Positions 256 through 55,605 of a DNA stretch of 64,000 bases are shown here, piece by piece. A model generated the notes under the pieces. It did no database searches. It was not told the DNA's origin and saw only the letters and a program-made list of their open reading frames with translations. Source of the stretch: Pontiella sulfatireligans. GTDB lineage: Bacteria > Verrucomicrobiota > Kiritimatiellia > Kiritimatiellales > Pontiellaceae. Each line of letters starts with the position of its first letter. The stretch's first letter is position 1. The stretch lies in NCBI RefSeq assembly GCF_900890705.1, contig NZ_CAAHFH010000001.1:1674001-1738000 (forward strand), written 5' to 3'. Made by a program: the position numbers and the translations under genes.

Positions 256-3200
256 TTATTGGCGCTCAATCTTCAGACGGATGAATTCCTGATTTTCAAT
301 ATCCGTACGATTGGTCACCGATTTATAGTTGCCGGCCGAAGGGGACTCGCCTACGAACTCAACGCCACCGACGGTCCAGTTTGAAGAAGACGCAAGGTCG
401 GTGCCTGTTTCGACCCTATAGGTCAGGCTTCCATCATCCGTGCGTTGATTATGGACATGGTAAAACCAGTGGCTTGCATTTCCATCGGAGCCGATGAACA
501 TCAATGCTCCGGCGGCGGCATCCAAAGGATCGCCATCCACGGCATACTCCATCAGGTTATCGTTTCCGTCCCCGTCCGGATCGGCGGTTAGCGCGTCGTT
601 TACCCCATTGGCCAACCCATTCTCAACACTCCAAAACTCGTAAGGAGTGACGGGCACTCCAACGATGGGAACAACAATACTCATGTTGTTTCCAATACGG
701 ATTTCATCCACATAACCAATATTCGCGCCTAGGCCGAATCCGAAATGCGTAATCGGCGAAAAGGTGGCGCCTGTCGAGTCGATCGTATGGGAGGCGCTGC
801 CCGCCACGTCGGACAAGTTGGTCGGATCGAAATAGGTCGTCATCGTACCGGTATCGAGATTAATCGCGGAAACGACAAAATGAAGCCCGGCGGTCGTGGG
901 ACCGCCAACGTCGTTAATACCGCTCGGGTTTCCATAGTTGCCCCATCCACTGGACGTCGCGCGAACCATGGCTTGCATCACTGAACCCATGCTGCTGGAG
1001 GCCCCTACCGCCCCGCTTAAAAGCCCTACATAAAAGCCGTTTGTGGCGTTATTTGCATCGAACAGGAAGCTCATATAAACGGTTCCAGTACTGATCGGAC
1101 CGCCTGTGAGTTCCAGTTGCAGGTTTTTGGTGCCACCTATCACCGCGTCCAGCCCCCCGTATTGGCCTTCCACATCCAAGGTGTTTCCGTTGCCATCCAG
1201 ATAGGAAAGACCCGCGGAGTCGTAGGTTCTCATCCTATAGTTGGTGAGGGTTGGATTGTTGGTAAAGCCCACGCCGCCGGGCATCTTCTGGAGCCGGACA
1301 TTCCCAACCGCATCGAACCCTTCGTAGGCCAATAACCCGTCGTAGACCCTAATCGTCAGTCCAGCGGTGGCGGTGCCGCCAAAGGCATCAGAAACCTGCA
1401 CCCTGAACAAATTCAATCCGTCATCCAAACTCGCGGGTATTCCGCCAAGAGTTCCATCCGATGCCACGCTAAGCCATGAGGGGCCCGCCACCTTGCTGTA
1501 AGTGAGCAGATGCCCCGCATCGGTATCCACGGCACTGCCTGCGAGGGTTGCTACGTAGGCTTTGCCTGGAATCGCGAATATCCGGCTCATGGGATCTTCG
1601 ACAAAGACAGGATCTGAGTTTACACCGGCATTCACCGTGATTGTCATTTCAGCGTTATCCGTCCCTCCCTGCCCGTCGGAGACCTGAACGGTAAAACTGT
1701 TCAGGCCGGCATCGACGGAGGCTGGCATGCCGCCAAGCGTGCCGTCGGGAGCGATGGTCAACCAGGCCGGGCCGCTGGTCTTTGAATAGACGAGCGCATC
1801 CAGATCGGCGTCCATTGCCGTGTCGCGGATGCTTCCGCTGTAAAACTGAAACCCAGAGGTCTCGGCCATCGTGAAGGGATCGACGGTAAATACAGGGGGA
1901 CGGTTGGAGACGCTAGCGGGCAGGAACTCGGTCTGGCTCTGAATCGTGTTCAGCAGCGCCACCGTATTCGTCTGTCCGGCGGCATCAACCACCTCGATGG
2001 ATCCGCCCAGCGCACCGGTTTTATCCAGCTGGATCGTATAGTGGTTCCCAGCGTAGTCCAGGCTCACCGTTGCAGAGCCCGCATCTTCTGATAAGGCATA
2101 AGGAATCAATTCTTCCAAATGCTCATCCCCGAGCTGCAGCAGGTGCAGGAAATAGTCGCGCTCCGTGGCCACCTTAGGGGTGACATCGATCCGCCATTTT
2201 CCCTGAACCGCTTTCTGGGCATCGGTAAGTCCATCCCAATCCAACAAGGGATATTCCGTTGCATCATTCCGTTTAAATCCTTCTATGATCGTGGTATCAA
2301 CGGCTGCAGGTAACAGGGTCTTACCATACAAGCGACCTCCACCATTCCATCCGGAAAAACTATTGTCATCGGTCGACACGGTCGGTGGTTGACCGAAATG
2401 CAGCAACCAGTCCTTGCGGAAGCTGGCTTCATCGGCCTCGACCCGATCGAACACCAGGAACAGGCTCGGATAGATATGCAGGAACTGACGGCTCACCTCA
2501 TTGACCCGGTTGCTATCGTAGCAATCCGTTCCATTGCCCGCCATATAGCTAAAGTTATCGTTCCACACAAACGACTCCAGCGTGGAATCCCCATGGGTTC
2601 CCGCAAGTTGTCCGCCATATTCATTCCCGCTCGGGAGAGTATGCACCAGCACCATATTGTGCGCCACGCTTCTCTGGGCATACCGAGTCCAATGGTAGGT
2701 GTCGGAATAACCCGGTCGATTCCCCGAATCAAGCGCCTGAAACCCTTCTTTATACAAGGTGAAGTGCAGGCTATCCCGGTGCCGGTGGGCCGTCATTTCT
2801 CCGCCGCACATGAACATGGCATACGTGCCATTGGAGGCATAAGCGCTTTTGGAAAAGAGCTGCCCCATGGTTTTGAAATAAAACGCCTTGGGAAGTGTAT
2901 CGGAATCCGAAGTCGACTCAAAAATATCATTGGTATTGCCGAATAGGGAATAGTAGGGATGGTTGATATGGTCCTCAAAAATTCCCCGAACATAGTTCAT
3001 GGAATCCTTTTGCTCCGGACTGGCCACCGCACCGTAGAGGGCGAGATAGTTTTTCATGTGCAGAGCCATCTGACCTCCGGGAAACTCGTTTTCACTTCGC
3101 TGGAGATCGCCGGATCCATATTGGTAAATTTCTTCATCAACCCCCATGATCATATTCCATATCACATAGTACGATAGCCCCAGAAGCTCGGGGGTGATCG

Positions 3201-4842
3201 ATACAAAATCCTGACCCCAGGCCGAGCGAGAAGCATGCATAAAATTAATCAGGCTATAGGGATAAGCCGAAAATGAATATGATAGCGTGGTTGCACTCGC
3301 CCCGCCGAATTCTCCGCGGCTTTGCGCCCGGTAATAGATGAATTTTAGATAATTTTCATATTCTACGTCCAGCCAGGGACGAAGTGTATCGCTTTTAAAC
3401 GTCTCGGTGATAAACGATTTATCGAGAGCCATCAGCGGAATATAATACCGCAGAAATCCGGCTCCATAGTTCCCTAGTTCAACATTGGTTCTGGACTCAC
3501 GTGGTACTTCGGTCGAAGTAAAACTATTGGCCATGAAGAAGTCCATGGCGGAAATATAGCGATTGAGCAAATCCTCCTGTGCCCCGGCAGAGAGCCCGTT
3601 ATAGACCAAATCATAGGCTATGAGCCACTCCAGCCGGGTAAACCCGGCCCAGGCAAAAGCATAGCCCAAATTGACCCGTTTCTCATAACTCAGCAACGAT
3701 ACGTTCATGAGCCATTCCGCATAGTCGGCAAACTGCTGGTCGCCGGTCGCCAGGTAGACCACGGCCGACTTAATGGCATGCTGGTTGGGTTCAAAAGAGT
3801 TCGCTCCACCTGCCACTAATTTATCTGCCTCCAAGGCCGTCTCATACTGCATCCAATAATTCGAAGCGGTCACATTGGTCCAATCATCGGCCAGCATGCG
3901 GGCCTCGATGTCGGCTTTAAAATCATTGGTGATCATACCCGCCTTGGCGGCATCCAGCATGATCTCGTCAAATCGGTCCGGGGTAAGAAACAGACGCGGA
4001 TGTCCCGCGATCAAGGATCCTTCGATATCCAGATTCAAGAAGGTGTCCAAAAACTCCTGTTCGGTATATTCAAGAATGGTTTTCACGGTCGATAACGGAA
4101 CAACATCGCCAAGCGAGTCTCCGATTCGGATTTCGTCTACGAGGGCCTCGCCACCCGTTAGTACACCGAGCGCAACCGCGATAAAATCCGGAAAAGCGGC
4201 GGTCCCGACAGCAGACAAACTCCCTTCGGCTGTGCCGACTACGTCGGTCAGATCCGAAGGGTTCCAGTAAACGCTCAATGAGTGGGCCGATCGGTCAACC
4301 TTCAGAATCACCAACGTCGGGCCCGTTGTTTCAGTCGCCCCCGCAATCTTCACGCCATTGGGTGCATAGATCTGTCGTTTAAAAGAAGTGTCTAACCGGC
4401 TGACCGCCCCGGCATGAGCATTTCCATAACTCACGTCAGAGCCAGCGACAGCCTGGCCAAACCCCATTGACGTCCAGGCATCCAGCACGACGTAATCGAT
4501 GAGAAAACTCATGTAGTAGGTGTCGGTATCGGCAATTGGATTCGCCAACACGAGCTGGAGGTTCCGATGGGACGCCGCCGCAGAACTGAGTCCAGCGGAC
4601 CGGCCCATATTTACCAGCTGGTTGCCTTGCGAATCGGTATAGCTAAGCCCCGCCTGAAGATCCATATCGGCGTGGGTTTCGGTATAGCCGCTGAATCCAG
4701 TTCCGGTAAGCCCCGCCGCGGTAACATCGGTTCCGATCGGATTAATCGTATCGAATCCTTCATAGGCCAGCAGCGCGGCCTGCGTACTTAGGCAGGAAAC
4801 CACGAAAGCCAGCCCGATCACCTTTGCCATTGCATTTTTCAT
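256..4842 (-). CDS. Secreted multidomain heparinase II/III-family protein with two LamG-like domains
   Basis: Predicted secreted polysaccharide lyase of 1,528 residues. I chose the ATG at 4842 because AAGGGAACT precedes it and it begins a clear signal peptide (MKNAMAKVIG, hydrophobic core, cut near TQA-ALLAY). Domains in order: LamG-like jelly roll (about 20-250); alpha/alpha-toroid and C-terminal sheet of the heparinase II/III type (about 280-990), with the conserved block AHRHRDSLHFTLY and GFQALDSGNRPG; two cadherin/He_PIG-like Ig repeats (about 1000-1180, 'DGTLGG.PAS.D.GLN.F.VQVSD'); a second LamG-like domain (about 1185-1400); and a tail with a calcium-type motif DPDGDGNDNLMEYAVDGDP. The catalytic half is paralogous to the two 753-residue proteins at 8.0-12.7 kb. 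The exact substrate cannot be read from sequence; alginate, GAG-like or other uronate polymers are possible. Confidence 0.85.
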   Translation of the reverse strand: MKNAMAKVIGLAFVVSCLSTQAALLAYEGFDTINPIGTDVTAAGLTGTGFSGYTETHADMDLQAGLSYTDSQGNQLVNMGRSAGLSSAAASHRNLQLVLANPIADTDTYYMSFLIDYVVLDAWTSMGFGQAVAGSDVSYGNAHAGAVSRLDTSFKRQIYAPNGVKIAGATETTGPTLVILKVDRSAHSLSVYWNPSDLTDVVGTAEGSLSAVGTAAFPDFIAVALGVLTGGEALVDEIRIGDSLGDVVPLSTVKTILEYTEQEFLDTFLNLDIEGSLIAGHPRLFLTPDRFDEIMLDAAKAGMITNDFKADIEARMLADDWTNVTASNYWMQYETALEADKLVAGGANSFEPNQHAIKSAVVYLATGDQQFADYAEWLMNVSLLSYEKRVNLGYAFAWAGFTRLEWLIAYDLVYNGLSAGAQEDLLNRYISAMDFFMANSFTSTEVPRESRTNVELGNYGAGFLRYYIPLMALDKSFITETFKSDTLRPWLDVEYENYLKFIYYRAQSRGEFGGASATTLSYSFSAYPYSLINFMHASRSAWGQDFVSITPELLGLSYYVIWNMIMGVDEEIYQYGSGDLQRSENEFPGGQMALHMKNYLALYGAVASPEQKDSMNYVRGIFEDHINHPYYSLFGNTNDIFESTSDSDTLPKAFYFKTMGQLFSKSAYASNGTYAMFMCGGEMTAHRHRDSLHFTLYKEGFQALDSGNRPGYSDTYHWTRYAQRSVAHNMVLVHTLPSGNEYGGQLAGTHGDSTLESFVWNDNFSYMAGNGTDCYDSNRVNEVSRQFLHIYPSLFLVFDRVEADEASFRKDWLLHFGQPPTVSTDDNSFSGWNGGGRLYGKTLLPAAVDTTIIEGFKRNDATEYPLLDWDGLTDAQKAVQGKWRIDVTPKVATERDYFLHLLQLGDEHLEELIPYALSEDAGSATVSLDYAGNHYTIQLDKTGALGGSIEVVDAAGQTNTVALLNTIQSQTEFLPASVSNRPPVFTVDPFTMAETSGFQFYSGSIRDTAMDADLDALVYSKTSGPAWLTIAPDGTLGGMPASVDAGLNSFTVQVSDGQGGTDNAEMTITVNAGVNSDPVFVEDPMSRIFAIPGKAYVATLAGSAVDTDAGHLLTYSKVAGPSWLSVASDGTLGGIPASLDDGLNLFRVQVSDAFGGTATAGLTIRVYDGLLAYEGFDAVGNVRLQKMPGGVGFTNNPTLTNYRMRTYDSAGLSYLDGNGNTLDVEGQYGGLDAVIGGTKNLQLELTGGPISTGTVYMSFLFDANNATNGFYVGLLSGAVGASSSMGSVMQAMVRATSSGWGNYGNPSGINDVGGPTTAGLHFVVSAINLDTGTMTTYFDPTNLSDVAGSASHTIDSTGATFSPITHFGFGLGANIGYVDEIRIGNNMSIVVPIVGVPVTPYEFWSVENGLANGVNDALTADPDGDGNDNLMEYAVDGDPLDAAAGALMFIGSDGNASHWFYHVHNQRTDDGSLTYRVETGTDLASSSNWTVGGVEFVGESPSAGNYKSVTNRTDIENQEFIRLKIERQ

Positions 4843-4953
4843 AGTTCCCTTGATTTTGTTGATCGAACACACATCGACCCATCTAAGCTCATTTCAACCG
4901 GCAAGCTCAGAGTGACGCTATTTATAACCCCATTCACAGATTTTTAACAGGTA

Positions 4954-5174: not shown

Positions 5175-6308
5175 TCAGAGATGGCGAAACTCCACATGGA
5201 TGCGGACCCCGTTTCTCGAATGGGATAGTTGGCGAATAACGAGCCCGCGTTCAGCATCTCTAAATATCTCCTGATCCTTCAGGGTGCAAATCAGATACGA
5301 CGCCTTGCCCTTTTTCCGGCCTCGGTGAATGCTCACGCCTCCAACGAACGCACTCTTCAGGTTCGTGTCAACTCCTGCCGATTCACGAAACGAAAGATAA
5401 TAGAACTCTCCATCTGCTGACTTCCTCGGAAGTTTGATCACTTGAGTCCCCGGCTCCCGATAGGGATCGCGACCGAGCGGCAACAGCACCCTTTCAGTCA
5501 CAAGCGGCTTATTTAAAAGGACCAAGGTTCCGGCGGGAAGGTGGTCATACCAGCCGGCCTGATCCGCATGAACTGAATTAAACCCCTTGGGTCCGGTGGT
5601 CGACCCCATAATACACGATCCATCCCCATAGCGACGATCCGAGGGTTCGTCTTCGTTGAAGCCGTTGTTGTTACGATCGGACTTTGCATGGTTAAATCCC
5701 ACGTTATGTCCCATCTCGTGAGCAATAGTAAATACCGAATGGACTTTAGCCCATGCTGCTTTCGATGACTCCACACCATGAGACCCAACCTGCCCGGCCG
5801 CAGTAAACAAGCACTCCGACTTTGTCGTTTTTCCACTCGGAAAGATGAAAAAACGGTGTTGGTAATCATAGGCCTCGATACCGAGCTCCGACCGAAGTAC
5901 CTCCATGGCCCGAATACGGTAATCCTTCTTTGGGCACCCCTCATAGGGTTCGACTGTAATCGGTTCCGGAGTCCGTACGTTCTCCTCAAGGAACCGAGTC
6001 TGCCCAAACGATGATTGGTTATAGATTGCATCGACTGACATCCCTTCGGAAAAAAGATGCTCGCGCAATTCCTGCACATGCTGCTTCGTGTAGTGATGGT
6101 CCGCTTTGTCCCGGATATTGATAAAAACAAAGATCGCGCGACGCTCATCCACCTCCAGGCCTTCGCGCTCCGCGATGCTTTGTTCCGCACCGACGGACCC
6201 TGTAGATAGGCCCATCGTCACCACCACGAGGAAAAGTCGATAGCGCCCTGCTCCAACAGGCTTATCTGGGCGATTCGCAACGCGCGATTTTTTTAAGAAG
6301 AATGCCAT
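5175..6308 (-). CDS. Secreted zinc metallopeptidase, M11 gametolysin-like
   Basis: Predicted secreted endopeptidase of 377 residues. The ATG at 6308 is preceded by GAGGAG at 10 bp; a lysine/arginine-rich n-region and the core YRLFLVVVTMGLSTGSVGA form the signal peptide. The zinc motif HEMGHNVGFNH (H197, H201, H207, catalytic E198) is complete, and a met-turn-like CIMG follows about 35 residues later. That arrangement fits metzincins of the M11/M6-like type. Its role in a glycan locus could be removal of protein from proteoglycan or maturation of secreted enzymes (inference). Its 5' end (codons for LKKxRVANRPDK) also appears in a chimeric remnant at 10404-10449. A 55-codon in-frame tail follows the stop codon, so the present C-terminus may be shortened. 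Confidence 0.75.
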   Translation of the reverse strand: MAFFLKKSRVANRPDKPVGAGRYRLFLVVVTMGLSTGSVGAEQSIAEREGLEVDERRAIFVFINIRDKADHHYTKQHVQELREHLFSEGMSVDAIYNQSSFGQTRFLEENVRTPEPITVEPYEGCPKKDYRIRAMEVLRSELGIEAYDYQHRFFIFPSGKTTKSECLFTAAGQVGSHGVESSKAAWAKVHSVFTIAHEMGHNVGFNHAKSDRNNNGFNEDEPSDRRYGDGSCIMGSTTGPKGFNSVHADQAGWYDHLPAGTLVLLNKPLVTERVLLPLGRDPYREPGTQVIKLPRKSADGEFYYLSFRESAGVDTNLKSAFVGGVSIHRGRKKGKASYLICTLKDQEIFRDAERGLVIRQLSHSRNGVRIHVEFRHL

Positions 6309-6345
6309 ATGGATACAGCTCCTCGTTTTCTCCAAAAACCAGACA

Positions 6346-7878
6346 TCATTGCAATAGCCCTTCGACGGCGAGTCTTCGCGCAAGCTGGGCCTCATGCAGG
6401 TTCTGCGGCTCCAGCTTCAACGGATCGATCGCTTCAAACCATTTTCCATCGCGTTTTTTAACCGAGGGTTGTTCGGTCTTGATCGCTACCAGATTCATGG
6501 ACGAGGGACCGAATTGGCTGTCGGGGTAGCATTGCGGCTGCTCGGCTCGGATATTCCAGAAGGTCTCGCGCGCGCCGCATTGCTTTCCCAGCAATCCTCC
6601 GCCGCCGCAATGCCACATCCGAGTCCCTTGTCCAACATCAATATGGGTGAATAGATTTTCGTATGGCGCGCGTTTATGATGGTCAAAGTTTAGGTCCTCG
6701 CCCCTTCCATTCGAGAATACACTGCCCGCAAAGTTGACTGAAACGCCTAGATCGTGGACGAAGCGCATATTAAAATTGAACGCGGTGAAGAGATTGTCGG
6801 TTCCGCCAAGGAGAATACCATGGTGCCCAAGGATACCGTTTTTGGACTCTCGTTCCGATTCGAACGTCACATCGGTAATGGTACAGAACTTGGCACCAAT
6901 AAATATTCCGCTATCGGCGTTTATAATGCGTACATTACGCACCCAGCAGTCCGCCACGGCAGACATGGAAATTGCATTGTAGCCGTGCTCGGTAAAGTGT
7001 CCGTCATATTGGCCCCGAGGAAACTCAACCCCCAGATCCTCAATACCCACCTCGCTGACGGTTGGGTTGAAGCTCCTGATCTGAGGCTTCCAGCCAAGCT
7101 TGATGTCGAACCGCAGCGGGCGGTCGAAGACAATCTGATTGCTGGTTAATGCGGTAAGTGTAACGACAAACGACCCCGTGGATCCTTTGAAATTTTGAAG
7201 ATCTCCAGAATCTTCGGAATAAAGGTGAGACGTCAAGGTCTTCTGAGCGTCATCCTGCACAAAGACTTCGACGCGCTGGCCGACCTTTAAACCCATCGTT
7301 GATGAAACCGTTAATGTCTTGTCGCCACGTTTCGCACGGGCGGTCACCTCGGCAAGTTTAACGGTTTGAAAGTCCCCATTAATTTGTAGCAACCCACCAG
7401 ACCAAGAATACCTACTGATTTTCTTTCCCTTGGGCGTCGTAAACCAAACTGGATTGATCTCATTCAGCGGCACCGGAAAGAACAGGATGCTTTTTTCGGG
7501 CCCGCCCCCCCGGAGCACCACATTGCTTTTCTGAATATTAAGGATATTCGTAATTTTATATCGTCCGGGAGGCACATAGATCGCTCCGTTTTTGTTGGCG
7601 GAAATGGCATCCATAAAGGCCTGCAAGTCATCGTGCACGCCGTCCCCTTTGGCCCCAAAAGATTTAACATTGGAAACCTGAGGCACACGGGGTATAGGGG
7701 CCCCACCACAATGATAGCCCGCATAGGAAAAATCAGGGAGTCGCCCGGCCGGAGACCACGTCTCCCCCGCCTTGCCCCACAGCTCGGAATAGGTCTGCGC
7801 GCAGACCGTACTCCCGATGCTCAAACCGCCAATCAAACCCGTTATCAAGACCACTGCAGTTACGAACTGTTTCCTCAT
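6346..7878 (-). CDS. Secreted pectate-lyase-3-type parallel beta-helix protein
   Basis: Protein of 510 residues; the ATG at 7878 follows AAGGAATCTT and starts a signal peptide (MRKQFVTAVVLITG, cut near VCAQTY). Residues about 60-130 carry the hallmark of the Pectate_lyase_3 / GH28-like family: VKSFGAKGDGVHDDLQAF, then GAIYVPPGRYKI and VVLRGGG. The rest reads as right-handed beta-helix rungs. This fold hosts polysaccharide lyases and hydrolases acting on uronic-acid polymers, but I cannot assign a lyase family or the catalytic residues. It lies 37 bp upstream of the metallopeptidase gene and probably shares its transcript. Confidence 0.75.
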   Translation of the reverse strand: MRKQFVTAVVLITGLIGGLSIGSTVCAQTYSELWGKAGETWSPAGRLPDFSYAGYHCGGAPIPRVPQVSNVKSFGAKGDGVHDDLQAFMDAISANKNGAIYVPPGRYKITNILNIQKSNVVLRGGGPEKSILFFPVPLNEINPVWFTTPKGKKISRYSWSGGLLQINGDFQTVKLAEVTARAKRGDKTLTVSSTMGLKVGQRVEVFVQDDAQKTLTSHLYSEDSGDLQNFKGSTGSFVVTLTALTSNQIVFDRPLRFDIKLGWKPQIRSFNPTVSEVGIEDLGVEFPRGQYDGHFTEHGYNAISMSAVADCWVRNVRIINADSGIFIGAKFCTITDVTFESERESKNGILGHHGILLGGTDNLFTAFNFNMRFVHDLGVSVNFAGSVFSNGRGEDLNFDHHKRAPYENLFTHIDVGQGTRMWHCGGGGLLGKQCGARETFWNIRAEQPQCYPDSQFGPSSMNLVAIKTEQPSVKKRDGKWFEAIDPLKLEPQNLHEAQLARRLAVEGLLQ

Positions 7879-8043
7879 AAGATTCCTTGCTCCAATGTTA
7901 CGTGCTGTTTTTTGTGCCCCTCTAGCGTCCTTCATCATGAGTAGCCTCTAACTTGATTGACTTGTTTTTGGATAGAGAAGAGCTCCACTTCAAATACCTA
8001 CACACGGGATGTACGCCACTCTCGGGAGCTACTAGTTTTCCTT

Positions 8044-10305
8044 TTAATTCAAAAACTGGGCCTGATCCTGAATCATGTTTTTCAGTTCAACCTTGGATGT
8101 CGTGTTACTCTCCACATCAAGGATTTCAATGCTGCCGCCAAGTTCTCCGGTTTTATTCAGAAGAATGGTATACAGCTTGTCGTTATACGAAATGCGAACC
8201 GCAGCAGTACCCTCTTTTTCAACCACTTTATGAGGAACTATTTTTGCAAGCGACGCATCACCCACCTGAAGCAGATGCAGGAAAACATCTTTTTCTTGCG
8301 CTGTCTCAGGCGTCACTTCCACTCGCCACTTGCCTTGATTGGCCTGCTCGGCTGCCGAAAACTTATCCCAGGATTTAATCGGGAATTCGGTATCTTCATC
8401 CCACTTAAATCCGTTAACGATTTTGGTTTTTACGTTTTTTGGCAACAAGGTTTTTCCGAGCAATCGACCGCTTCCATTTGCGCTGACAAAACTATTATCC
8501 GGAAGCACGAGCGGCTCGTCCGCAAAATGCAAAAGCCAATCTTTGCGATAGCCAGCCTTCTGGCTCTCAATCCGGTCGAAGACCAAAAATAGATCCGGAT
8601 AAATATGCACAAACTGTCGGGTCACCTCACGCGCCGAATCTTCGGAATAACTCCCCGTCGCATCGCCAGCAGTATATGTAAAATCTTCATTCGACAGGTA
8701 TGATTTTACTTCGGAATTCAACCGCTGATTAGAAATTTGTCCGCCATAGAGTGAAGCACCCCTGCCGCCCTTTTGGATGCCCTCATCTCCATGAATCAGC
8801 ACCACATTGTGTGCAACACTTTGCTGACTATAGTACTTCCAGTGGTCGTTATCGGATAACCCGGGCCGGTTCCCCGAGTCCAGGGCCTGGAATCCATTTT
8901 TATATAGGGTAAAATGAAGATTATCCGCATGGCGGTGGGCACCCATTTTCCCACCACACTGGAACATGGCATACGTAGCATTGGTGGAAAAAGCACTGCG
9001 GGAAAAAATCTGCCCCATTACCGGGAAATAAAAAGCCTTGGGCAGTATGCTTACATCAAATTCGGCGCTCGCCTCACCTTGACGATCACGTAGAAGCGAA
9101 TAATAGAGATGTCCCCCTTTCACCGGAAACTTATCCCGCATGAATCGCATAAGATCCATAGAATTAGGATCGGCGTTGGGATAAAGCGCAATGAAATTTC
9201 CCACATGTTGATTGAGGTTTCCGCCAGGGAATTTGCTTTCACGCCGCTGAAGATCGCCCGATCCATATTGATACAACACCTCGTTTTCTCCCAGAATCAT
9301 GTTCCAGATCAGATAATAGGGAAGGCCGAGCAGATCCGGACTGATGGCTGCAAAATCCAAATTGAGAGCCGATTTGGAAACATATAAAAAATTAAATATT
9401 GTTTTCGGATAGGCCCCGATTGAATACGTCAAGGTCGTGCTGCTGCACCCGCCGAATTCCCCGCGACTTTGCGTTCGATAATACAATAATTCCAACAGCT
9501 CGTGATATCCCTTCTTCAGCCAAGGCCGCAACAGGTTTGCTTTCATCTCTTCAGGAATAAAGGGCTTATCCAAGGCAACAATCGGGATATAAAACTTAAG
9601 GAACCCCGGCCCGTACGCCCCCAGTTCCTTCCCGTTTCCTGCTTCATTATACGAACCCATCTTTTTCTTGCCGGTCACATAAGGCGCCATGGCAGTGACA
9701 TAGCGCGGAAGCAAATCAGAGCGGCTACTTTCCGACATTCCATTATAAATCCAGTCATAGGCCATAATCCACTGCAAGCGGGAAAATCCATACCAGTCGA
9801 TCGTATAGTACAGCTCCGCACGCAACTCATAGGTTAGCAGCGAAACCGACAACAACCATTCCGCGTATTCACAAAACCGTTGATCGCCGGTCCAGAGATA
9901 GACCCATGCGGATTTAAGTGCATCATTGGTCGGATCAAACCGCGATCTCCCACGGCTTTCTAATCTACTATCCTCACTTAGCTTCTCCTTAAACGGCTTC
10001 CAACGCTCCGCAGGGCTAATCGTCGTATAATTGACCCGCTCCATTTGCGCTTCCACTTGTTCCTTGTATGAAGCCAGGATTGCGCACTTCTCGGGGTCCT
10101 CTTTAATTTCAGCGATCAAACTCTTCGTCAAGAAGAGCCGAGGAGTCTCTTTTGTAATCCGGGCCTCCAGATCTTCATTGGCATAGGCCGCCAGAAAATC
10201 CGCTTCCGTCGGATACTTTTCCAGCAAACGGGGTGCGGAAGGAACGGCAACCGCCGAGCCAACAACCCATACACTTGTGAGTAATGCTATAACCCTCTTT
10301 TTCAT
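8044..10305 (-). CDS. Secreted heparinase II/III-family lyase, copy A
   Basis: Protein of 753 residues. The start is set by GGGAG five bases before ATG and by the signal peptide MKKRVIALLTSVWVVGSAVAVPSAP. The N-terminal two thirds form an alpha/alpha-toroid; the C-terminal heparinase II/III domain has the conserved AHRHADNLHFTLYKNGFQA and GNRPG. It is a close paralog of the gene at 10452-12713; the last ~440 bp of the two are almost identical in DNA while central parts differ more. It also resembles the catalytic half of the first gene. By family it would cleave uronate-containing polysaccharide by beta-elimination in the periplasm or outside the cell; the substrate is not known. Confidence 0.85.
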   Translation of the reverse strand: MKKRVIALLTSVWVVGSAVAVPSAPRLLEKYPTEADFLAAYANEDLEARITKETPRLFLTKSLIAEIKEDPEKCAILASYKEQVEAQMERVNYTTISPAERWKPFKEKLSEDSRLESRGRSRFDPTNDALKSAWVYLWTGDQRFCEYAEWLLSVSLLTYELRAELYYTIDWYGFSRLQWIMAYDWIYNGMSESSRSDLLPRYVTAMAPYVTGKKKMGSYNEAGNGKELGAYGPGFLKFYIPIVALDKPFIPEEMKANLLRPWLKKGYHELLELLYYRTQSRGEFGGCSSTTLTYSIGAYPKTIFNFLYVSKSALNLDFAAISPDLLGLPYYLIWNMILGENEVLYQYGSGDLQRRESKFPGGNLNQHVGNFIALYPNADPNSMDLMRFMRDKFPVKGGHLYYSLLRDRQGEASAEFDVSILPKAFYFPVMGQIFSRSAFSTNATYAMFQCGGKMGAHRHADNLHFTLYKNGFQALDSGNRPGLSDNDHWKYYSQQSVAHNVVLIHGDEGIQKGGRGASLYGGQISNQRLNSEVKSYLSNEDFTYTAGDATGSYSEDSAREVTRQFVHIYPDLFLVFDRIESQKAGYRKDWLLHFADEPLVLPDNSFVSANGSGRLLGKTLLPKNVKTKIVNGFKWDEDTEFPIKSWDKFSAAEQANQGKWRVEVTPETAQEKDVFLHLLQVGDASLAKIVPHKVVEKEGTAAVRISYNDKLYTILLNKTGELGGSIEILDVESNTTSKVELKNMIQDQAQFLN

Positions 10306-10336
10306 CCTTGCTCCCGTCCTTCTCAGAATTTATTTT

Positions 10337-10449
10337 TTACTTTTTCAAATACCCAAGCGAAACGAGGAAATCGTCCATCGCCTTATTCATTTCATTAAAT
10401 ATTTATCTGGGCGATTCGCAACGCGCGGTTTTTTCAGGGAAAACCCCAT
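10337..10449 (-). pseudogene. Deletion scar: metallopeptidase 5' end joined to esterase 3' end
   Basis: Read on the minus strand, an ATG at 10449 opens MGFSLKKPRVANRPDK, matching the start of the metallopeptidase (MAFFLKKSRVANRPDK). At GATAA this switches to the last codons of the esterase at 12746 (DKYFNExNxAMDxFLVSLGYLK), with one base missing so that the esterase part is out of frame. It ends at TAA 10337-10339. The region is therefore the stump left when a duplicated block containing both genes was deleted down to its outer ends. Confidence 0.75.
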
Positions 10450-10451
10450 AT

Positions 10452-12713
10452 TTAGTCAAGAAACGGGACCTGATCCTGAACGATATTTTTCAGTTTAACC
10501 TTGGATGTCGTGTTACTCTCCACATCAAGGATTTCAATGCTGCCGCCAAGTTCTCCGGTTTTATTCAGAAGAATGGTATACAGCTTGTCGTTATACGAAA
10601 TGCGAACCGCAGCAGTACCCTCTTTTTCAACCACTTTATGAGGAACTATTTTTGCAAGCGACGCATCACCCACCTGAAGCAGATGCAGGAAAACATCTTT
10701 TTCTTGCGCTTTCCCAGGCGTCACTTCCACTCGCCACTTGCCTTGATTGGCCTGCTCGGCGGCCGAAAACTTATCCCAGTAATGAATCGGGAATTCGGTA
10801 TCTTCATCCCACTTAAATCCGTTAACGATTTTGGTTTTTACGTTTTTTGGCAACAAGGTTTTTCCGAGCAATCGACCGCTTCCATTTGCGCTGACAAAAC
10901 TATTATCCGGAAGCACGAGCGGCTCGTCCGCAAAATGCAAAAGCCAATCTTTACGAAAGGCGGCCTTTTTACTCTCAATCCGGTCGAAGACCAAGAATAG
11001 GTCCGGATAAATATGAAAAAACTGTCGGGTCACTTCATTGACATGATTCGATGAATAACTCCCCGTCGCATCGCCAGCAATATACGCAAAATCTTCATTC
11101 GACAGGAATGATTTCACCTCGGAATTCAACCGCTGATTAAAAATCTGTCCGCCATAGAATGAATCATTTCTATTGCCCCTTTTCTTATCGCCATCTCCAT
11201 GAATCAAAACCACATTGTGCGCAACACTTTGCTGATAATAATACTTCGAGTGGTCGCCATCGGAATATCTGGGCCGATTACCGGAATCAAGGGCCTGGAA
11301 TCCATTTTTATATAGGGTAAAATGAAGATTGTCCGCATGGCGGTGGGCAATCATTTTTCCACCGCACTGGAACATGGCATACGTGCCATTGGTGGCAAAA
11401 GCATTACGGGAAAAGGTCTGCCCCATTACCGGGAAATAAAAAGCCTTTGGCAATATGCTTTCATCAAATTCCGCTCTCGTCTCATCTTGACTCTCACGTA
11501 GAAGCGAATAATAGAGATGATCCTCTTCCGCCGGAAACTTATCCCTTATGAATCGCATAAGATCGGTAGAATTAGGGTCGGCGTTGGGGTAGAGCGAAAT
11601 GAAAGCTTCCATATAGTGATCGAGGTTTTGACCAGGGAATTTGCTTTCGCGCTTCTGCAGATCGCCCGATCCATATTGATACAACACCTCGTTTTCTCCC
11701 AAAATCATGTTCCAGATCAGATAATATGGAAGGCCGAGCAGATCTGGACTGATGGCGGCGAAATCCAAATTGAGAGCCGATCTAGAAACATATAAAAAAT
11801 TAAATATTGTTTTCGGATAGGCCCCGATTGAATACGTCAAGGTCGTGCTGCTGCACCCGCCGAATTCCCCGCGACTTTGCGTGCGATAATACAATAATTC
11901 CAACAGCTCGTGGTATCCCTTCTGCAGCCAAGGCCGCAACAGGTTTGCTTTCATCTCTTCAGGAATAAAGGGCTTATCCAAGGCAACAATCGGAATATAA
12001 AACTTAAGGAACCCCGGTCCGTACGCCCCCATCTCCTTACCATTTCCTGCTTCATTATACGAACCCATCTTTTTCTTGCCGGTCACATAAGGCGCCATGG
12101 CATTGACATAGCGCGGAAGCAAATCAGAGCGGCTACTTTCCGGCATATCATTATAAATCCAGTCATAGGTCATAACCCATTTCAAGCGGGACCAACCATA
12201 CCAGTCGATCGTATAGTATAGCTCTGCACGCAACTCATAGGTTAGCAGCGAAACCGACAACAGCCATTCCGCGTACTCAGAAAATCGTTGATCGCCGGTC
12301 CATAAATAGACCCATGCGGCTTTAAGCGCATCATCGGTCGGATCAAACCGTGATCTCCCTCGGCTTACTAATCTGCTATCCTCACTTAGTATCTCCTTAA
12401 ACTGCGCCCAATACTCGACCGGGCTGATCGCCGGATAATTATACTCCTCCATTTGCGCTTCAATATGTTCTTTGTATGAAGCAATGAGTGCGCACTTCTC
12501 GGGGTCCTTCTTAAATTCATCAACCCTACTTTTCGTCAAGAAGAGCCGAGGAGTCTCTTTTGTAATCCGGGCCTCCAGATCTTCATCGGCATAGGCCGCC
12601 AGAAAGTCCGCTTCCGTCGGATACTTTTCCAGCAGGCGGGGTGCGGAAGGAACGGCAACCGCCGAGCCAACAACCCATACACTTGTGAGTAATGCTATAA
12701 TCCCATTTTTCAT
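10452..12713 (-). CDS. Secreted heparinase II/III-family lyase, copy B
   Basis: Tandem paralog of the gene at 8044-10305 and also 753 residues long when started at ATG 12713 (GGAG five bases upstream; signal peptide MKNGIIALLTSVWVVGSAVA). Same layout: helical toroid, then a heparinase II/III C-terminal domain with AHRHADNLHFTLY, GFQALDSGNRPR and a SVAHNVVLIHGD block. Differences from copy A cluster in the middle (about residues 350-560), which might alter specificity. The esterase gene begins 33 bp upstream and is probably co-transcribed. Confidence 0.85.
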   Translation of the reverse strand: MKNGIIALLTSVWVVGSAVAVPSAPRLLEKYPTEADFLAAYADEDLEARITKETPRLFLTKSRVDEFKKDPEKCALIASYKEHIEAQMEEYNYPAISPVEYWAQFKEILSEDSRLVSRGRSRFDPTDDALKAAWVYLWTGDQRFSEYAEWLLSVSLLTYELRAELYYTIDWYGWSRLKWVMTYDWIYNDMPESSRSDLLPRYVNAMAPYVTGKKKMGSYNEAGNGKEMGAYGPGFLKFYIPIVALDKPFIPEEMKANLLRPWLQKGYHELLELLYYRTQSRGEFGGCSSTTLTYSIGAYPKTIFNFLYVSRSALNLDFAAISPDLLGLPYYLIWNMILGENEVLYQYGSGDLQKRESKFPGQNLDHYMEAFISLYPNADPNSTDLMRFIRDKFPAEEDHLYYSLLRESQDETRAEFDESILPKAFYFPVMGQTFSRNAFATNGTYAMFQCGGKMIAHRHADNLHFTLYKNGFQALDSGNRPRYSDGDHSKYYYQQSVAHNVVLIHGDGDKKRGNRNDSFYGGQIFNQRLNSEVKSFLSNEDFAYIAGDATGSYSSNHVNEVTRQFFHIYPDLFLVFDRIESKKAAFRKDWLLHFADEPLVLPDNSFVSANGSGRLLGKTLLPKNVKTKIVNGFKWDEDTEFPIHYWDKFSAAEQANQGKWRVEVTPGKAQEKDVFLHLLQVGDASLAKIVPHKVVEKEGTAAVRISYNDKLYTILLNKTGELGGSIEILDVESNTTSKVKLKNIVQDQVPFLD

Positions 12714-12745
12714 CCTTGCTCCTATCATTTTGAATTCATTTTTAA

Positions 12746-13585
12746 CTATTTCAAATACCCCAGCGAGACGAGGAAATTATCCATCGCCTGGTTCGTTTCA
12801 TTAAAATATTTGTCGTCATCTTTCCCTTGGTTGAAAAAGCCATGCCCAACACCGTCCCAAACCCGAATCTCGCACCGCCCGCCCTTGGACTTAACCAATT
12901 TCTGGAAGGGTTTGGCCTTTTTGGCATGCGCATCCTGCTCCCCGAAAAACAGGATGCTCGGAACCGTGCGTTCGCTCACATGGGCATACGGTGAATAGTC
13001 CAGCGAGAAGCCTTCCCACGGCTTCTTTCCTAGACTCACGGGGTTGAACAGCACCATGGCGTTGGCTAAATAAGGGATCGACTGGTCTGCATCCCCATTA
13101 TCAATGCCGGGAATAACCCCGACACAAGCAGCGACGGTCCCCCCGGCAGAAGCCCCGGACGCCACAATTCGGGCGGGATCAATTCCCAGCTCGACGGCAT
13201 GCGTCCGAATATAGCGCATGGCCGATATCCCATCATTCACACAATCGACCCGAGTGGAGTTGTGGCGAGAAGACACCCGATAGTCGGCCGTGATGGCGAC
13301 CATCCCCCGCTCAGCCAAATAGTTGCACTGCGGCTGAAACTGGGCAGGCGTACCTTTAGAAAATCCACCCCCAAAGAAAAATACGATGGCTGGCACCTTA
13401 TCCGTTTTCTTATGCCCCTTGGGAGCGAGCAGGTAGAGCTTGAGTTCAACGTCATCAATCGTCTTGTAAACGATCTCTTTCGCCTCAGGAAATTCAGGCG
13501 GATAAACCGACATGTCATATTGTGCAAACGCACCCGAAGCCAACATGCAGACCAAACCCAACTTAAAAACCAATTTACCACTCAT
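12746..13585 (-). CDS. Secreted alpha/beta-hydrolase, BD-FAE-like carbohydrate esterase
   Basis: Protein of 279 residues with a signal peptide (MSGKLVFKLGLVCMLASGAFA) and GGAG upstream. It has the esterase/lipase layout: oxyanion-hole motif FFFGGGFSKGT, nucleophile elbow GASAGG (Ser146), an acidic residue in FFGEQDAH and catalytic His in GVGHGFF. The family removes acetyl or feruloyl groups from polysaccharides, so it likely exposes the backbone for the lyases next to it. The last 22 codons are also found, degenerate, in the scar at 10337-10403, showing that this gene was once duplicated together with a heparinase gene. Confidence 0.8.
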   Translation of the reverse strand: MSGKLVFKLGLVCMLASGAFAQYDMSVYPPEFPEAKEIVYKTIDDVELKLYLLAPKGHKKTDKVPAIVFFFGGGFSKGTPAQFQPQCNYLAERGMVAITADYRVSSRHNSTRVDCVNDGISAMRYIRTHAVELGIDPARIVASGASAGGTVAACVGVIPGIDNGDADQSIPYLANAMVLFNPVSLGKKPWEGFSLDYSPYAHVSERTVPSILFFGEQDAHAKKAKPFQKLVKSKGGRCEIRVWDGVGHGFFNQGKDDDKYFNETNQAMDNFLVSLGYLK

Positions 13586-13633
13586 AACGACTCGTCTCCT
13601 AGTTCAAGATCTCTTTGTGAATCCGCTCTTCCG

Positions 13634-15394
13634 TTATTCAACCCGGGTCAGAACTAATTTTCGAACCTTGACCGACTCCGATGTCAAATCTTTTTGCAGC
13701 GCAAAGTGGATTGCACAATTCGGTGAAAAAACTTTTACGCTACCTAGACGTTTAGTAACAAATTTCCCATCCGTTCCTTCAACCACACGAATCAGTTCGG
13801 AGGTCTCGGTATTTTGGTTGTCCCACTCACTGCGGCGGCTAGATACAACATAACGGCTCCCAGCCTTATCATTTTCGCAGGCATATTCAATATCCACCAA
13901 ATATTCTCCTTCTTCATTCGGAAGGTTAATCCAACTCAGTTGATTGAGATTATGCGCCAAAATAAAATTATCAACGGACTGAGTTTCCCAATCATAAACT
14001 AAATCTGGCCCCCGCAGTCTTGCTTCCCATGCATACAGGTTCCAGACGGCAGGAATAGTCTCATAGCCAAAGTCGGGTATAACCACCGCTTGCTCATCCT
14101 CAATATCCAGCACAATAACCGTATTAATCTGATCAGGTGCAGTCTGGGGAAGTACTAAAGAAAGACGTTTCTTAGTTTGGTTGAATTGAATGGATGGTCC
14201 TCCATCCAAAAAACGGGCGGTCTTCACACGGCTGCTCAGTCCATCGAGATCGAGTGATTCGCCCGGCCAGTTCAGTATGTGCAGATAGAGCTTACCCGGC
14301 TTCGCCGTACAGCGCCATGTGATGCCATTGATGTTGAACGGGCTGTGCGAGGTGTCATAAATGGATTCGCCGTTCACGGCCATCCATCGCCCAACCTCCC
14401 TTAAAATCCGTTGACTGTCCTCCGGGATAACACCGGTGGCATCGGGACCCACATTCAACAGATAATTCCCGCCCTTGCTAACAATATCAACCAGCTTGCA
14501 GATGAGATCTTTCGGACTCTTCCAATTGTGGTCATTCTTTTTGTATCCCCAGGTACGGTTCAATGTGGCCGGAACCTCCCACACATTGGATGTATAAACC
14601 TGGGTCGGGATGGTATTGTCTTCTGTTTGATCATAATCGCCTTGATCGTGGCCAATGCGGCTGTTCACTAGACAACTTGGTTGTTTTTCTTTCACTAGAT
14701 TACGCAACTCGATCACTTGATCCTTGTTCATTAATCTTGGGGTGTCGAACCAGATCATGGATAGATCACCATAGCCCTCCAACAATTCTTCTACCTGCGG
14801 TAATACCTTATTTTGGATGTAGATTTCAGGATCGCGTTTCCCCGAAAAATCCCATGTATTCCCGAAAGCATTTGGTTCATGCCAATCATGTGCCTGGGAA
14901 TAATAGAACCCAAACTTGAGATCACGCTCCGCACAGGCCGCCGAAAGCGCCGTCATCGGATCTTTCCCATACGGAGTTGCATCCACAATATTATATGTGC
15001 TGGCCTTCGAACCATACATGGCGAAGCCATCGTGGTGCTTCGCGGTGATGACCATGTATTTCATCCCCGCATCCTTCGCCAAATCGGCCCACTCATTGGC
15101 ATTGAACTCTACCGGATTGAATGTAGCGGCCAGTGGTTCATATTCGGATACAGGAATCTTTTCTCGATTCATGATCCATTCGCCGATGCCCGGAACCTCT
15201 TTTCCCTTCCACTCGCCCGCCGGAACGGCGTAGAGCCCCCAATGGATGAACATACCGAATTTCATCTGCTGAAAACGCTGAAGAGCGGGATCTGTTTCTA
15301 CGGATGCGGGGAGATTCTTCGAAGAACCTCCCTGGCAAACAAACGCGATACAGCCCAATGCAAAAAAAAGACTCAAACCCCATTTACGATTCAT
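13634..15394 (-). CDS. Secreted alpha-L-fucosidase, GH29
   Basis: Protein of 586 residues with a signal peptide (MNRKWGLSLFFALGCIAFVCQG). GH29 signatures are clear: KFGMFIHWGLYAVPAGEW near residue 45, YMVITAKHHDGFAMY, FGFYYSQAHDWHEP and the retaining nucleophile in MIWFDTP (Asp217). GGNYLLNVGPDATGVIP is also typical. A beta-sandwich domain follows from about residue 350. It releases alpha-L-fucose from oligosaccharides. Its start overlaps the stop of a predicted 52-residue ORF upstream (ATGA). The acid/base residue could not be assigned with certainty. Confidence 0.9.
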   Translation of the reverse strand: MNRKWGLSLFFALGCIAFVCQGGSSKNLPASVETDPALQRFQQMKFGMFIHWGLYAVPAGEWKGKEVPGIGEWIMNREKIPVSEYEPLAATFNPVEFNANEWADLAKDAGMKYMVITAKHHDGFAMYGSKASTYNIVDATPYGKDPMTALSAACAERDLKFGFYYSQAHDWHEPNAFGNTWDFSGKRDPEIYIQNKVLPQVEELLEGYGDLSMIWFDTPRLMNKDQVIELRNLVKEKQPSCLVNSRIGHDQGDYDQTEDNTIPTQVYTSNVWEVPATLNRTWGYKKNDHNWKSPKDLICKLVDIVSKGGNYLLNVGPDATGVIPEDSQRILREVGRWMAVNGESIYDTSHSPFNINGITWRCTAKPGKLYLHILNWPGESLDLDGLSSRVKTARFLDGGPSIQFNQTKKRLSLVLPQTAPDQINTVIVLDIEDEQAVVIPDFGYETIPAVWNLYAWEARLRGPDLVYDWETQSVDNFILAHNLNQLSWINLPNEEGEYLVDIEYACENDKAGSRYVVSSRRSEWDNQNTETSELIRVVEGTDGKFVTKRLGSVKVFSPNCAIHFALQKDLTSESVKVRKLVLTRVE

Positions 15395-15549
15395 AGCGAC
15401 TCTCCTTCATTTTCATATTCGATTTGTGAATCCGCGTTAACGCCCCGGCGGTCCTTCTTCGATCGGCCAATCATTCGTATGAAAAGGCGCCGAAGAAGTC
15501 CCCGTTCCGCCAACGAAACCATGCCCGTCAGCAGAACAACCAAAGTCAC
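15391..15549 (-). CDS. Predicted 52-residue small membrane-anchored protein
   Basis: A GTG at 15549 overlaps the TAG stop of the upstream esterase gene (TAGTG), and the frame runs without interruption to a TGA that overlaps the fucosidase start (ATGA). The peptide begins VTLVVLLTGMVSLAERGLLR, one hydrophobic stretch, then a basic segment (RRLFIRMIGRSKKDRR) and an acidic tail. Overlaps at both ends suggest translational coupling. It may instead be decayed sequence: there is no homology I recognise and the start codon is weak. Confidence 0.35.
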   Translation of the reverse strand: MTLVVLLTGMVSLAERGLLRRLFIRMIGRSKKDRRGVNADSQIEYENEGESL

Positions 15550-50392: not shown

Positions 50393-50455
50393 AGCGGGAA
50401 CCGGTTTGGGGTTGGATGTTGGAAGTTTGGTGTAGCCACGGATCAACACGGACAA

Positions 50456-50970
50456 ACACGGATGGAGAGGCGTAACGAGTAATGCGTATTGCGTATGCTT
50501 GGCGGCGGAGCAGGCGAGACGCCCGCGGTACGGAAAGAGCGCGGAGGGGCAGGCGGGATGGCAGCGACTGTGCGGATTGGGAAAGGTTCACCACAGAGGG
50601 CACAGAGGGACACGGAGAAGCAATAAACCGAAGACACGGAAAGTGACGTAGAAACAGCGGCAGCGGAAACGGCACGGGGGATGTCACCGAGGAAAGCACT
50701 GCCCCGCGGGGCTTATGACATAATGACATTCTATGACATATATATAGTAATATAGGGAGAGAAGGACAGAACGCCGTGCGGACGCCCCCGTGAAAATACT
50801 CAGAGAGGGCTCTAGAGACTTTTTTTCTTATGATGTCACACGTCATAACGACACGAAGTAAACGTTTTGAAACGGGGTGTGCAGGTGTGGGCAGGCGAGA
50901 CGCCCGCGGTACGGCAGGACGACACGGAGGTCGTCCCTCCAGGGCACGCGAGACGCGCGCGGTACGATTA
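50456..50970. repeat. 515-bp intergenic region with several repeat families
   Basis: It contains ACACGGACAAACACGG-type repeats (50434-50466), palindromes GCAGGCGAGACGCCCGCGG+TAC at 50510-50531 and 50891-50912 with a variant at 50944-50965, CACAGAGGGCACAGAGGGA (from 50589), and the A+T-rich candidate origin at 50713-50848. No coding sequence is convincing. Confidence 0.6.
50713..50848. other. Candidate replication origin (A+T-rich, iteron-like)
   Basis: In an otherwise G+C-rich region, ATGACAT occurs three times close together (TTATGACATAATGACATTC, then TATGACATATATATAG) next to TATATATAGTAATATAG. About 85 bp away lies the inverted repeat TTATGA-N9-TCATAA (50828-50848). The site sits 120 bp past the end of the primase-helicase gene, a common place for the origin used by such a protein. 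The evidence is pattern only. Confidence 0.4.
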
Positions 50971-53202
50971 TTAAAACGGCGTTCCATCGGCGGTGTCTCC
51001 GGTAATGATTTCGTTGATGTCGATAATCCAAATGCGTTTGGCCCCGGTACGCTGCTGGGTGATGGGATAGTTCTGGGAGGCGAGCTTGGAGAGTTCGCGG
51101 CCGACCTGACGCGTGGTGTACTTGGAGGCGATGCCGGCCAGGCCGTCGGTGTCGTTGAGCATGGCCGATAGCAGCTCGGTGGCGGAACCATCCCAGGTGT
51201 CCTCCACCTGCCCCTCGAAAAACTTGAGCAGCACTTCGAGAAATGAATAGGCGCTGGATGAATGGCGCGCCGCTTCGAACAGGGAATCCTCACAATACGT
51301 TTTCACGCCATAACGCGTATCACCGACCACGTTGTCCGGTGGTTGCCAGTCGAGCAGCCAGCGCAGGAAGTACGGCAACTCAGCGGCTATGATGGATTCG
51401 ACATCGCGCGGGAAGGTAAAGGTATCGCGCTCGGCAACCCGGAAGAGATTGATTTTGTCCCGGTTGGATAAATCGACGTCGGGTAGAATACGGATAGATT
51501 CGGGATCGGTATTGCAGGTAACGACTACGCGGCCATTCCACTCAATCAACTTGTCGACCCGGTATTTCTCACGCACGGAAAAGGTGCGGTTGGCCGCCAT
51601 CTTCTTGATGAGCGCCGAGAACTTTAGGTGCGATTTGTTGTCGGTCAGCGGCACGACATCGTCGACCGCCCAGACGGCGCTGTTGAATAGGTGGCTGTTG
51701 AAACCATCCTCGCCGGAAAGAAAAGAGCTGGCATCGATGTGGCCGCCGAAGATACGGGATAGAATAACATTGGAGAGCAGTGTCTTTCCGGTATTTGGGA
51801 CGCCGGCAAAGAAAGAGGCCTGACCGGGCAGCATTCGGCCTTCAAGGGCGGAAACATACCAACGTTGCAACCAGGCATAGAAAAAATCAAGCTGCTCGGA
51901 CGGGTCGAAGAAGTTGGAGAAATAATCGTGCAGCCAGGGGAAGGCAGACGAACCGCAGAACTCCGAACATGGAACATCGAACTCTGAAGGCGGTGCGGAT
52001 GGGGCCGGCGAGACGCCGGCGGTACATGGCGGTGCGGATGGGCAAGGCAGGCTGGAAGCCTGCGATACAACAACGGCTTGGTAGTATTCTTCGTCCGTGG
52101 CGGGCTGGAGGACGGTGACGGTGGAGGTATTGAGTACGCGATTGCCGTCGATCAGGACAATGCCTTTGGGTCGATGTACCAACGGAGCGGCACAGGCAAT
52201 ATACTGTTGCTTCTGGATACGATGGATAGCCTGGTCCACCTCGCTGAAGTTTTCCCCACGAGCGGGTTGTCCGCGTAGACCACGCTCCACCTTCAGGTGA
52301 AGTGCAATGTCAGCTTTCCCATACGATTGCCATTGACCGCTGGGCAGCTGCGTCCAGTAGTCACGGCCGTCAAAATAGACATCGGTAACGCTGCCGCCAA
52401 TACGATCCGCTTCAAATTGGCTGACAAACTGACGGCCAAGAATGACCGACCATGGAACGAATGCGGTTCCACCGGTAAAACATTGCATACCCGAATCGCG
52501 TACAACAGCGGCAGTCTGGTTGTCGGACTCTGCATCCCAGAAACGTACGCCGCGCGCACCGACGTAGAATTCGCCCTGCCAGCGACCGGGAAACTGCCGC
52601 TCTACTTCCGCGGCGACAATATCCATCGGAATAACCGTACCGAGCTTGCCCCAGGCATAGTTATGCGTGGATTCGATGGCCCACTGCATGATGAAGGCCG
52701 AAGATATCTCATCGCAAGATAGTGGCTGCCAATCGGTACCAGCCTCGTAATATTTACAGGGATCTTCGAAGGCATCGGTATCTAGGCCGACCAGCAGCTT
52801 GGAGAGCTTGAGTTTCTTTTTGATGTGCCGCATGAGCTTTGCAGTGAGGTCGTTCCGGTGCAGTGGAAACGGCTCTGCGAGTTTCCATAGCAGACGGGCG
52901 CCGCCGGAAGCGGTACGACAAATATATTGCGGCCTGAAGTCGGTGCACCGTTCGAGCACGGTATCGCGCATGTGCTGGTCGATGTTGCCGTCGTAGTCGG
53001 CCACCAGCCAATGGAGCAAGACCGCTGGATTGTTTTTGGAATCAATGCGGCCCGATGCAATGAGACCTTCGTAGCCGGAATAGAATGTATGTTCCACATC
53101 CGGACGGTTCCAGCGTGTCTTGGGCGGCGCGGTGGTTTCGGTCTCCCACGGCGAGCATTCGACGGTACGGGATGAGGCGAGATTGGGGATGGCGAGCAGC
53201 AT
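50971..53202 (-). CDS. Phage/plasmid primase-helicase (AEP-like + SF3, D5/P4 type)
   Basis: Protein of 743 residues; ATG 53202 has GGAGG nine bases upstream. The N-terminal part (about 40-160) has an AEP-like active site: WLVADYDGN, CRTASGGARLLWKL. The C-terminal superfamily 3 helicase has Walker A FFAGVPNTGKTLLSN (Lys473), Walker B AVWAVDDV, motif C RVVVTCNTDPESIRI and the D5-type tail. Between them an insert of about 40 residues (SQASSLPCPSAPPCTAG...) is encoded by composite repeats at 51955-52068. It should prime and unwind the element's own origin. Confidence 0.85.
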   Translation of the reverse strand: MLLAIPNLASSRTVECSPWETETTAPPKTRWNRPDVEHTFYSGYEGLIASGRIDSKNNPAVLLHWLVADYDGNIDQHMRDTVLERCTDFRPQYICRTASGGARLLWKLAEPFPLHRNDLTAKLMRHIKKKLKLSKLLVGLDTDAFEDPCKYYEAGTDWQPLSCDEISSAFIMQWAIESTHNYAWGKLGTVIPMDIVAAEVERQFPGRWQGEFYVGARGVRFWDAESDNQTAAVVRDSGMQCFTGGTAFVPWSVILGRQFVSQFEADRIGGSVTDVYFDGRDYWTQLPSGQWQSYGKADIALHLKVERGLRGQPARGENFSEVDQAIHRIQKQQYIACAAPLVHRPKGIVLIDGNRVLNTSTVTVLQPATDEEYYQAVVVSQASSLPCPSAPPCTAGVSPAPSAPPSEFDVPCSEFCGSSAFPWLHDYFSNFFDPSEQLDFFYAWLQRWYVSALEGRMLPGQASFFAGVPNTGKTLLSNVILSRIFGGHIDASSFLSGEDGFNSHLFNSAVWAVDDVVPLTDNKSHLKFSALIKKMAANRTFSVREKYRVDKLIEWNGRVVVTCNTDPESIRILPDVDLSNRDKINLFRVAERDTFTFPRDVESIIAAELPYFLRWLLDWQPPDNVVGDTRYGVKTYCEDSLFEAARHSSSAYSFLEVLLKFFEGQVEDTWDGSATELLSAMLNDTDGLAGIASKYTTRQVGRELSKLASQNYPITQQRTGAKRIWIIDINEIITGDTADGTPF
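51955..52068 (+). repeat. Composite repeat insert inside the primase-helicase gene
   Basis: Order on the plus strand: GAACATGGAACATCGAACTC-type unit, GGTGCGGATGGGG linker, palindrome GCCGGCGAGACGCCGGCGG+TAC (52004-52025), GGTGCGGATGGGC linker, palindrome GCAGGCTGGAAGCCTGCGA+TAC (52047-52068). It interrupts no frame: the gene reads through it between the primase-like and helicase parts. Confidence 0.8.
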
Positions 53203-55520: not shown

Positions 55521-55605
55521 AGGAAAACCGTTTAAAACGTTGAAGGTTGAAGCGAATGCCCCCAGCCTCGGTAACGAAGCTGGAAGCATCGTCTACGAAA
55601 AACCG

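Follow-up and report, generated by a model that had tools for sequence, protein, structure and literature searches.

A chimeric scar between two heparinase paralogs of Pontiella sulfatireligans is a probable join point of an old tandem duplication

Introduction

Partial gene fragments that remain between tandem paralogs are a familiar legacy of gene duplication, commonly described as duplication pseudogenes. In Escherichia coli, both join points with a few bases of homology and the growth of arrays by unequal crossing-over are established (PMC3161906, PMC11111574): short homology was present at 40 of 40 sequenced junctions of lac amplification (PMC3161906), and designed 9-bp borders led to tandem duplication (PMC11111574).

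Here we consider a locus in a cluster of genes for polysaccharide degradation. The window, i.e. the whole stretch of DNA analysed, comprises 64,000 bases (positions 1674001-1738000 of contig C1) of a genome of 7,395,795 bases (7.4 Mb); unless a contig is named, coordinates are those of the window. An original prediction, made from the letters of the window, had noticed a short piece of DNA in which the start of a metallopeptidase gene is fused to the end of an esterase gene, and had read it as the remains of a larger duplicated block. Our literature search on this cluster found no report, which does not prove that none exists. We argue below that the scar is an ordinary duplication relic, if an unusually readable one.

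Results

Organization of the gene cluster

In the direction of transcription, on the minus strand, the order is fucosidase, esterase, hepA, scar, hepB, pectate-lyase-like gene, metallopeptidase and hepC. The features needed for the argument are as follows:

15394-13634, minus: alpha-L-fucosidase, first gene listed in the direction of transcription
12746..13585, minus: esterase (alpha/beta hydrolase; PF07859, PF20434), intact, donor of the 3' piece of the scar
10452..12728, minus: hepA, heparinase II/III-like lyase, 758 aa (PF07940)
10403..10451, minus: first piece of the scar, duplicating the metallopeptidase start (ATG with 2 bases before it and 15 codons after it), immediately behind the hepA stop codon, 42/49 identical to 6262-6310
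10326..10402, minus: second piece of the scar, duplicating the esterase end (stop codon with the ~20 codons before it and the first spacer bases after it), 64/74 to 12732-12805 in the ungapped core
10306..10325, minus: remaining bases of the copied spacer between esterase and heparinase, including the ribosome-binding-like site for hepB, homology running into the hepB start
8044..10305, minus: hepB, tandem paralog of hepA, 753 aa, protein identity 87% (alignment, Pfam)
6346..7938, minus: pectate-lyase-like gene (PF12708), complete, now between hepB and the metallopeptidase
6305..6341, minus: relic of heparinase coding sequence, 37 bp, before and overlapping the metallopeptidase ATG, 32/37 to hepA and 31/37 to hepB
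5175..6308, minus: metallopeptidase (reprolysin/gametolysin-like; PF05548, PF13583), intact, donor of the 5' piece of the scar
4872-256, minus: hepC, third and longer heparinase-like gene, 50% identity to hepA in alignment

Pfam reports the heparinase C-terminal family in hepA and hepB and only Ig/cadherin-type domains in hepC, so that hepC is called heparinase-like on the strength of its alignment with hepA. The pectate-lyase-like gene is complete in that alignments with its relatives reach residue 524 of 530.

Several further observations concern the surroundings of these genes. The C-terminal part of hepC (about residues 1170-1400), which we take to be LamG-like, has 75-79% protein identity to several nearby places (G000:C1:1664246-1673355), which the N-terminal part matches more weakly, at about 30%; hepC (256-4872) and these neighbours may be mosaic multi-domain genes. 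A fourth heparinase-like gene, similar to hepC, lies about 40 kb before the window (L073:10708-12603, G000:C1:1632708-1634603), its 3' end cut short beside two ORFs that presumably resemble an IS21-type istA/istB pair. We considered this locus as a sister cluster and rejected it, the gene being hepC-like and without esterase or peptidase nearby. The fucosidase and esterase genes share a 61-bp leader/start stretch with 74% identity (13566-13626 and 15375-15435), the core of which, GCGGATTCACAAA, has no further occurrence in the genome; this is possibly another small local duplication. Elsewhere in the window, short GC-rich repeats of the GCAGGCGAGACGCCCGCGGTAC type are numerous in 50404-58474, some standing alone and others in pairs.

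A scar with parts of both flanking genes

Between hepA and hepB, just where the original prediction had placed the chimera, the start of the metallopeptidase is joined to the end of the esterase. Two bases separate the hepA stop codon from the ATG at 10449, from which, on the minus strand, this ATG and 15 codons read MGFSLKKPRVANRPDK, compared with MAFFLKKSRVANRPDK at the native start at 6308. The match of 10403-10451 to 6262-6310 is 86% over 49 bp (BLAST E 6e-11 in the window and 3.6e-9 in the whole genome). All 7 mismatches fall within the first 24 bases and the last 25 bases are identical, so that the 5' half has either evolved faster or is less certainly aligned; the encoded residues there, MGFSLKKP and MAFFLKKS, still agree. 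The metallopeptidase frame meets a stop after 20 codons and is thus a dead reading frame. Since the scar copy starts at the same ATG, it favours 6308 over the upstream ATG at 6395 as the start codon of the intact metallopeptidase.

The esterase piece has an ungapped core, 10326-10399 against 12732-12805, with 64 of 74 bases identical, and a longer alignment (10300-10399 against 12708-12805) has 84% identity (BLAST E 2e-23 in the window and 1.2e-21 in the whole genome). Homology of this type does not end with the esterase but passes the stop codon into the spacer, the ribosome-binding-like site and the start of hepB, with only a 2-base gap. Because it continues through the spacer into hepB, the scar is one edge of a whole duplicated unit. 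At the seam the esterase frame (FNEMNKAMDDFLVSLGYLKK, then the stop) is one base short, which bears out the frameshift that had been described. The pentamer GATAA, said to be shared by both sources, is indeed found in the metallopeptidase and in the scar, but today's esterase has GACAA at this position (4/5 bases). Seam homology is thus imperfect today, and as the event is old the original state may have differed.

The scar differs from its sources at 17 of 123 bases (10/74 in the esterase piece, 7/49 in the peptidase piece), a Jukes-Cantor (JC) distance of about 0.15 and hence on the order of the synonymous divergence between hepA and hepB, for which overall dS is 0.20 and dN 0.074. Along the two heparinase genes (8044-12728), near-identical and diverged stretches alternate. 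By segment, dS ranges from 0.03 to 0.49 (heterogeneity chi-square 36.7, 11 df, p 1.3e-4), a spread suggestive of patchy gene conversion between the two genes; such conversion would have held parts of hepA and hepB alike.

The scar as the probable junction of two head-to-tail copies

Having described the two pieces, we can ask what arrangement would produce them. The paralogs hepA and hepB are adjacent, on the same strand and spaced 2408 bases from start to start. The first copy spans the intact esterase, hepA and the start of the metallopeptidase; in the second copy, homology sets in at the seam within the esterase tail, crosses the spacer and the ribosome-binding-like site, and continues along the heparinase as far as its stop. 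Taken together, these extents make the seam the point at which the end of one unit meets the start of the next. Moreover, the novel joint, with the downstream edge of the unit fused to the upstream edge, occurs only between the copies, both pieces stand in the order and on the strand predicted for a head-to-tail join point, and the outer esterase and peptidase are intact, as they would be because the copies ended inside them. We consider it probable, with some room for doubt, that the scar marks where the copies of a tandem duplication were joined, the duplicated unit having comprised the esterase tail, the heparinase and the metallopeptidase start.

Imagine an ancestor in which, in the direction of transcription, the esterase was followed by a heparinase and the heparinase by the metallopeptidase. 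A segment that began some 20 codons upstream of the esterase stop, took in the heparinase and ended at codon 16 of the metallopeptidase would have been copied head to tail, most likely through slippage or a template switch where a few bases are homologous (GATAA/GACAA). Where copy 1 meets copy 2, the sequence would then read peptidase start followed by esterase end, which is the arrangement found between hepA and hepB. Such a direct join needs the heparinase to have been followed immediately by the metallopeptidase in the ancestor. Two traces of this adjacency are seen: in the scar, the hepA stop is followed by the peptidase ATG, and heparinase DNA stands before the ATG of the intact peptidase.

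A heparinase relic in front of the metallopeptidase

The second of these traces, the 37-bp relic at 6305..6341, matches the interior of hepA and hepB with genome-wide E values of 2.5e-5 and 5.8e-4, respectively. Its score of 27 compares with maxima of 19 among 3000 simulated Markov sequences and 20 among 3000 real 41-bp pieces of the window, so that 0 of 3000 controls of either kind score as high; the fit is worse to hepC (score 10) and to the fourth copy outside the window (score 15). The relic supports an ancestral order of esterase, heparinase and metallopeptidase, to the extent that the present layout of the DNA can speak for an earlier one.

Exactly where the relic ends and the metallopeptidase start begins lies AATATGG, the longest string common to the heparinase interior and the seam of hepA stop and peptidase start (36-base stretches compared); in the present metallopeptidase leader one base of this repeat has changed (CCATATGG). 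The 7-bp repeats suggest a deletion between them in a further heparinase copy that would have stood before the peptidase. Since the relic comes in addition to a complete hepB, this reading calls for at least three copies of the heparinase. The leader also contains GAGGAG ten bases before the ATG, and the corresponding site in the scar, at the end of hepA, has no GAGGAG-like purine run; the heparinase relic may thus now serve as the ribosome-binding site of the metallopeptidase.

These features can be arranged, tentatively, into a longer series of short-homology rearrangements, which we regard as possible but rather short of an even chance. After the duplication, the array would have grown to at least three heparinases by unequal crossing-over. 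In the copy beside the peptidase, a deletion between two AATATGG repeats would then have taken away the 3' part, so that 37 bp of heparinase became a new peptidase leader and ribosome-binding site in place of an older start beside the heparinase stop. The pectate-lyase-like gene would have been captured later, removing the rest of the third heparinase copy. If this series is true, DNA that once coded for a now collapsed paralog has become control DNA of another gene.

Alternative histories

Three observations sit uneasily with the duplication that we favour. Today the pectate-lyase-like gene, rather than the peptidase, comes next after hepB, which calls for extra events; one breakpoint must fall no more than a base or two from the hepB stop, a coincidence that is unexplained; and at least three heparinase copies are required, yet no remnant of a second seam is found downstream of hepB, where the best match is 10 bp long. 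This match, GGTATTTGAA, was considered as a remnant of the esterase tail and rejected as chance, since 522 of 3000 simulated controls and 534 of 3000 real ones match as well.

How else might the scar have come about? One scenario, close to the original prediction, has the whole esterase, the heparinase and the whole peptidase duplicated and a later deletion between codon 16 of the peptidase and the tail of the esterase. The end sequence would be the same as from a direct join, and the patchy identity of hepA and hepB (dS 0.03-0.49, p about 1e-4) suggests that the copies have recombined. However, this history invokes two events where one is enough, and seven intergenic stretches compared with the window held no other extra remnant of esterase or peptidase. 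A duplication that included the heparinase and parts of the esterase and peptidase genes thus survives from the original prediction, while its larger block and collapse are unneeded, since one tandem duplication joined inside both flanking genes gives the same product; we consider the collapse unlikely. The present neighbourhood, with the pectate-lyase-like gene between hepB and the peptidase, might instead reflect an ancestral order of esterase, heparinase, pectate-lyase gene and peptidase, with the pectate-lyase gene duplicated and then deleted from copy 1. That deletion would by chance have had to join the hepA stop to a point 2 bases before the peptidase ATG, and the heparinase relic goes unexplained, its edge being a 7-bp repeat that arises where a heparinase meets the peptidase start directly. 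We accordingly give this order only a slim chance.

A different kind of explanation would treat LKKxRVANRPDK as a leader or signal-peptide cassette, mobile or recurrent, that landed twice, and the metallopeptidase piece does end near the signal-peptide-like region of the peptidase. Recurrence of this cassette elsewhere in the genome had been named as the finding that would speak against the chimera, and we looked for it there. Allowing up to 3 mismatches, the core pattern occurs at 3 places in the 7.4 Mb, one of them weak, and exact core copies number only two. DNA searches of the genome with the metallopeptidase leader and with the whole scar returned no significant further copy of either piece, the remaining matches, heparinase and esterase matches aside, having E values of at least 0.5, and a protein search of the genome with the N-terminal 100 residues of the metallopeptidase recovered only the two known places. 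As neither piece has further significant copies, the recurrence is not seen and the cassette is already largely refuted in this genome; it would, moreover, leave the adjoining esterase piece unexplained. We therefore regard it as highly improbable.

Search for relatives

An unduplicated relative would bear directly on the ancestral order. Heparinase matches are found in 39 of 387 genomes of a phylum sample (best other match 35% identity) and in 2 of 28 genomes of the genus, where the other one is weak; metallopeptidase matches, those outside our genome being partial, are found in 2 of 58 and 4 of 387 genomes (own genome included in all counts). No relative was confirmed by scans of genome contigs, whether with hepA alone or with hepA, hepB and hepC aligned. 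At 13 loci with wider neighbourhoods (9 from the 38 other heparinase-matching genomes, 3 with pectate lyase, 1 with peptidase) no second cluster gene appeared at E 1e-4, and among 46 loci with short flanks the esterase was present in none and heparinase and peptidase together in none. Because no relative carrying the cluster or the unduplicated order was found among the genomes searched (58, 387 and 28, own included), the ancestral order and the polarity of events rest on internal evidence: the matches, their order, their edges and their uniqueness in the genome are read directly, and from these we infer the ancestral order, the copy number, the order of events and the molecular mechanism.

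Discussion

The scar is a readable fossil of paralog gain and loss in a cluster for polysaccharide degradation, and its seam carries no insertion sequence. As tandem duplication through joints of short homology is already well known, the general picture stays as it was.

Like duplication pseudogenes, the scar consists of truncated ends of flanking genes that lie as dead sequence between paralogs. It differs from them in that it takes from both flanking genes, and in that a second relic, the heparinase piece before the peptidase, makes a second event readable.

The closer comparison is with the join points described in E. coli (PMC3161906, PMC11111574). Compared with these, our scar is old, being about 15% diverged, it lies in a polysaccharide-degradation cluster, its single-copy ancestor is unseen and its mechanism is deduced. 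In common with those join points, the copies stand head to tail, and at their novel joint the downstream end of the unit is connected to its upstream end. A few bases of homology at the joint, imperfect today, may be a further likeness, as may the growth and shrinkage of the array by recombination. The scar probably belongs to a known kind, the join points of tandem duplications of the short-homology type.
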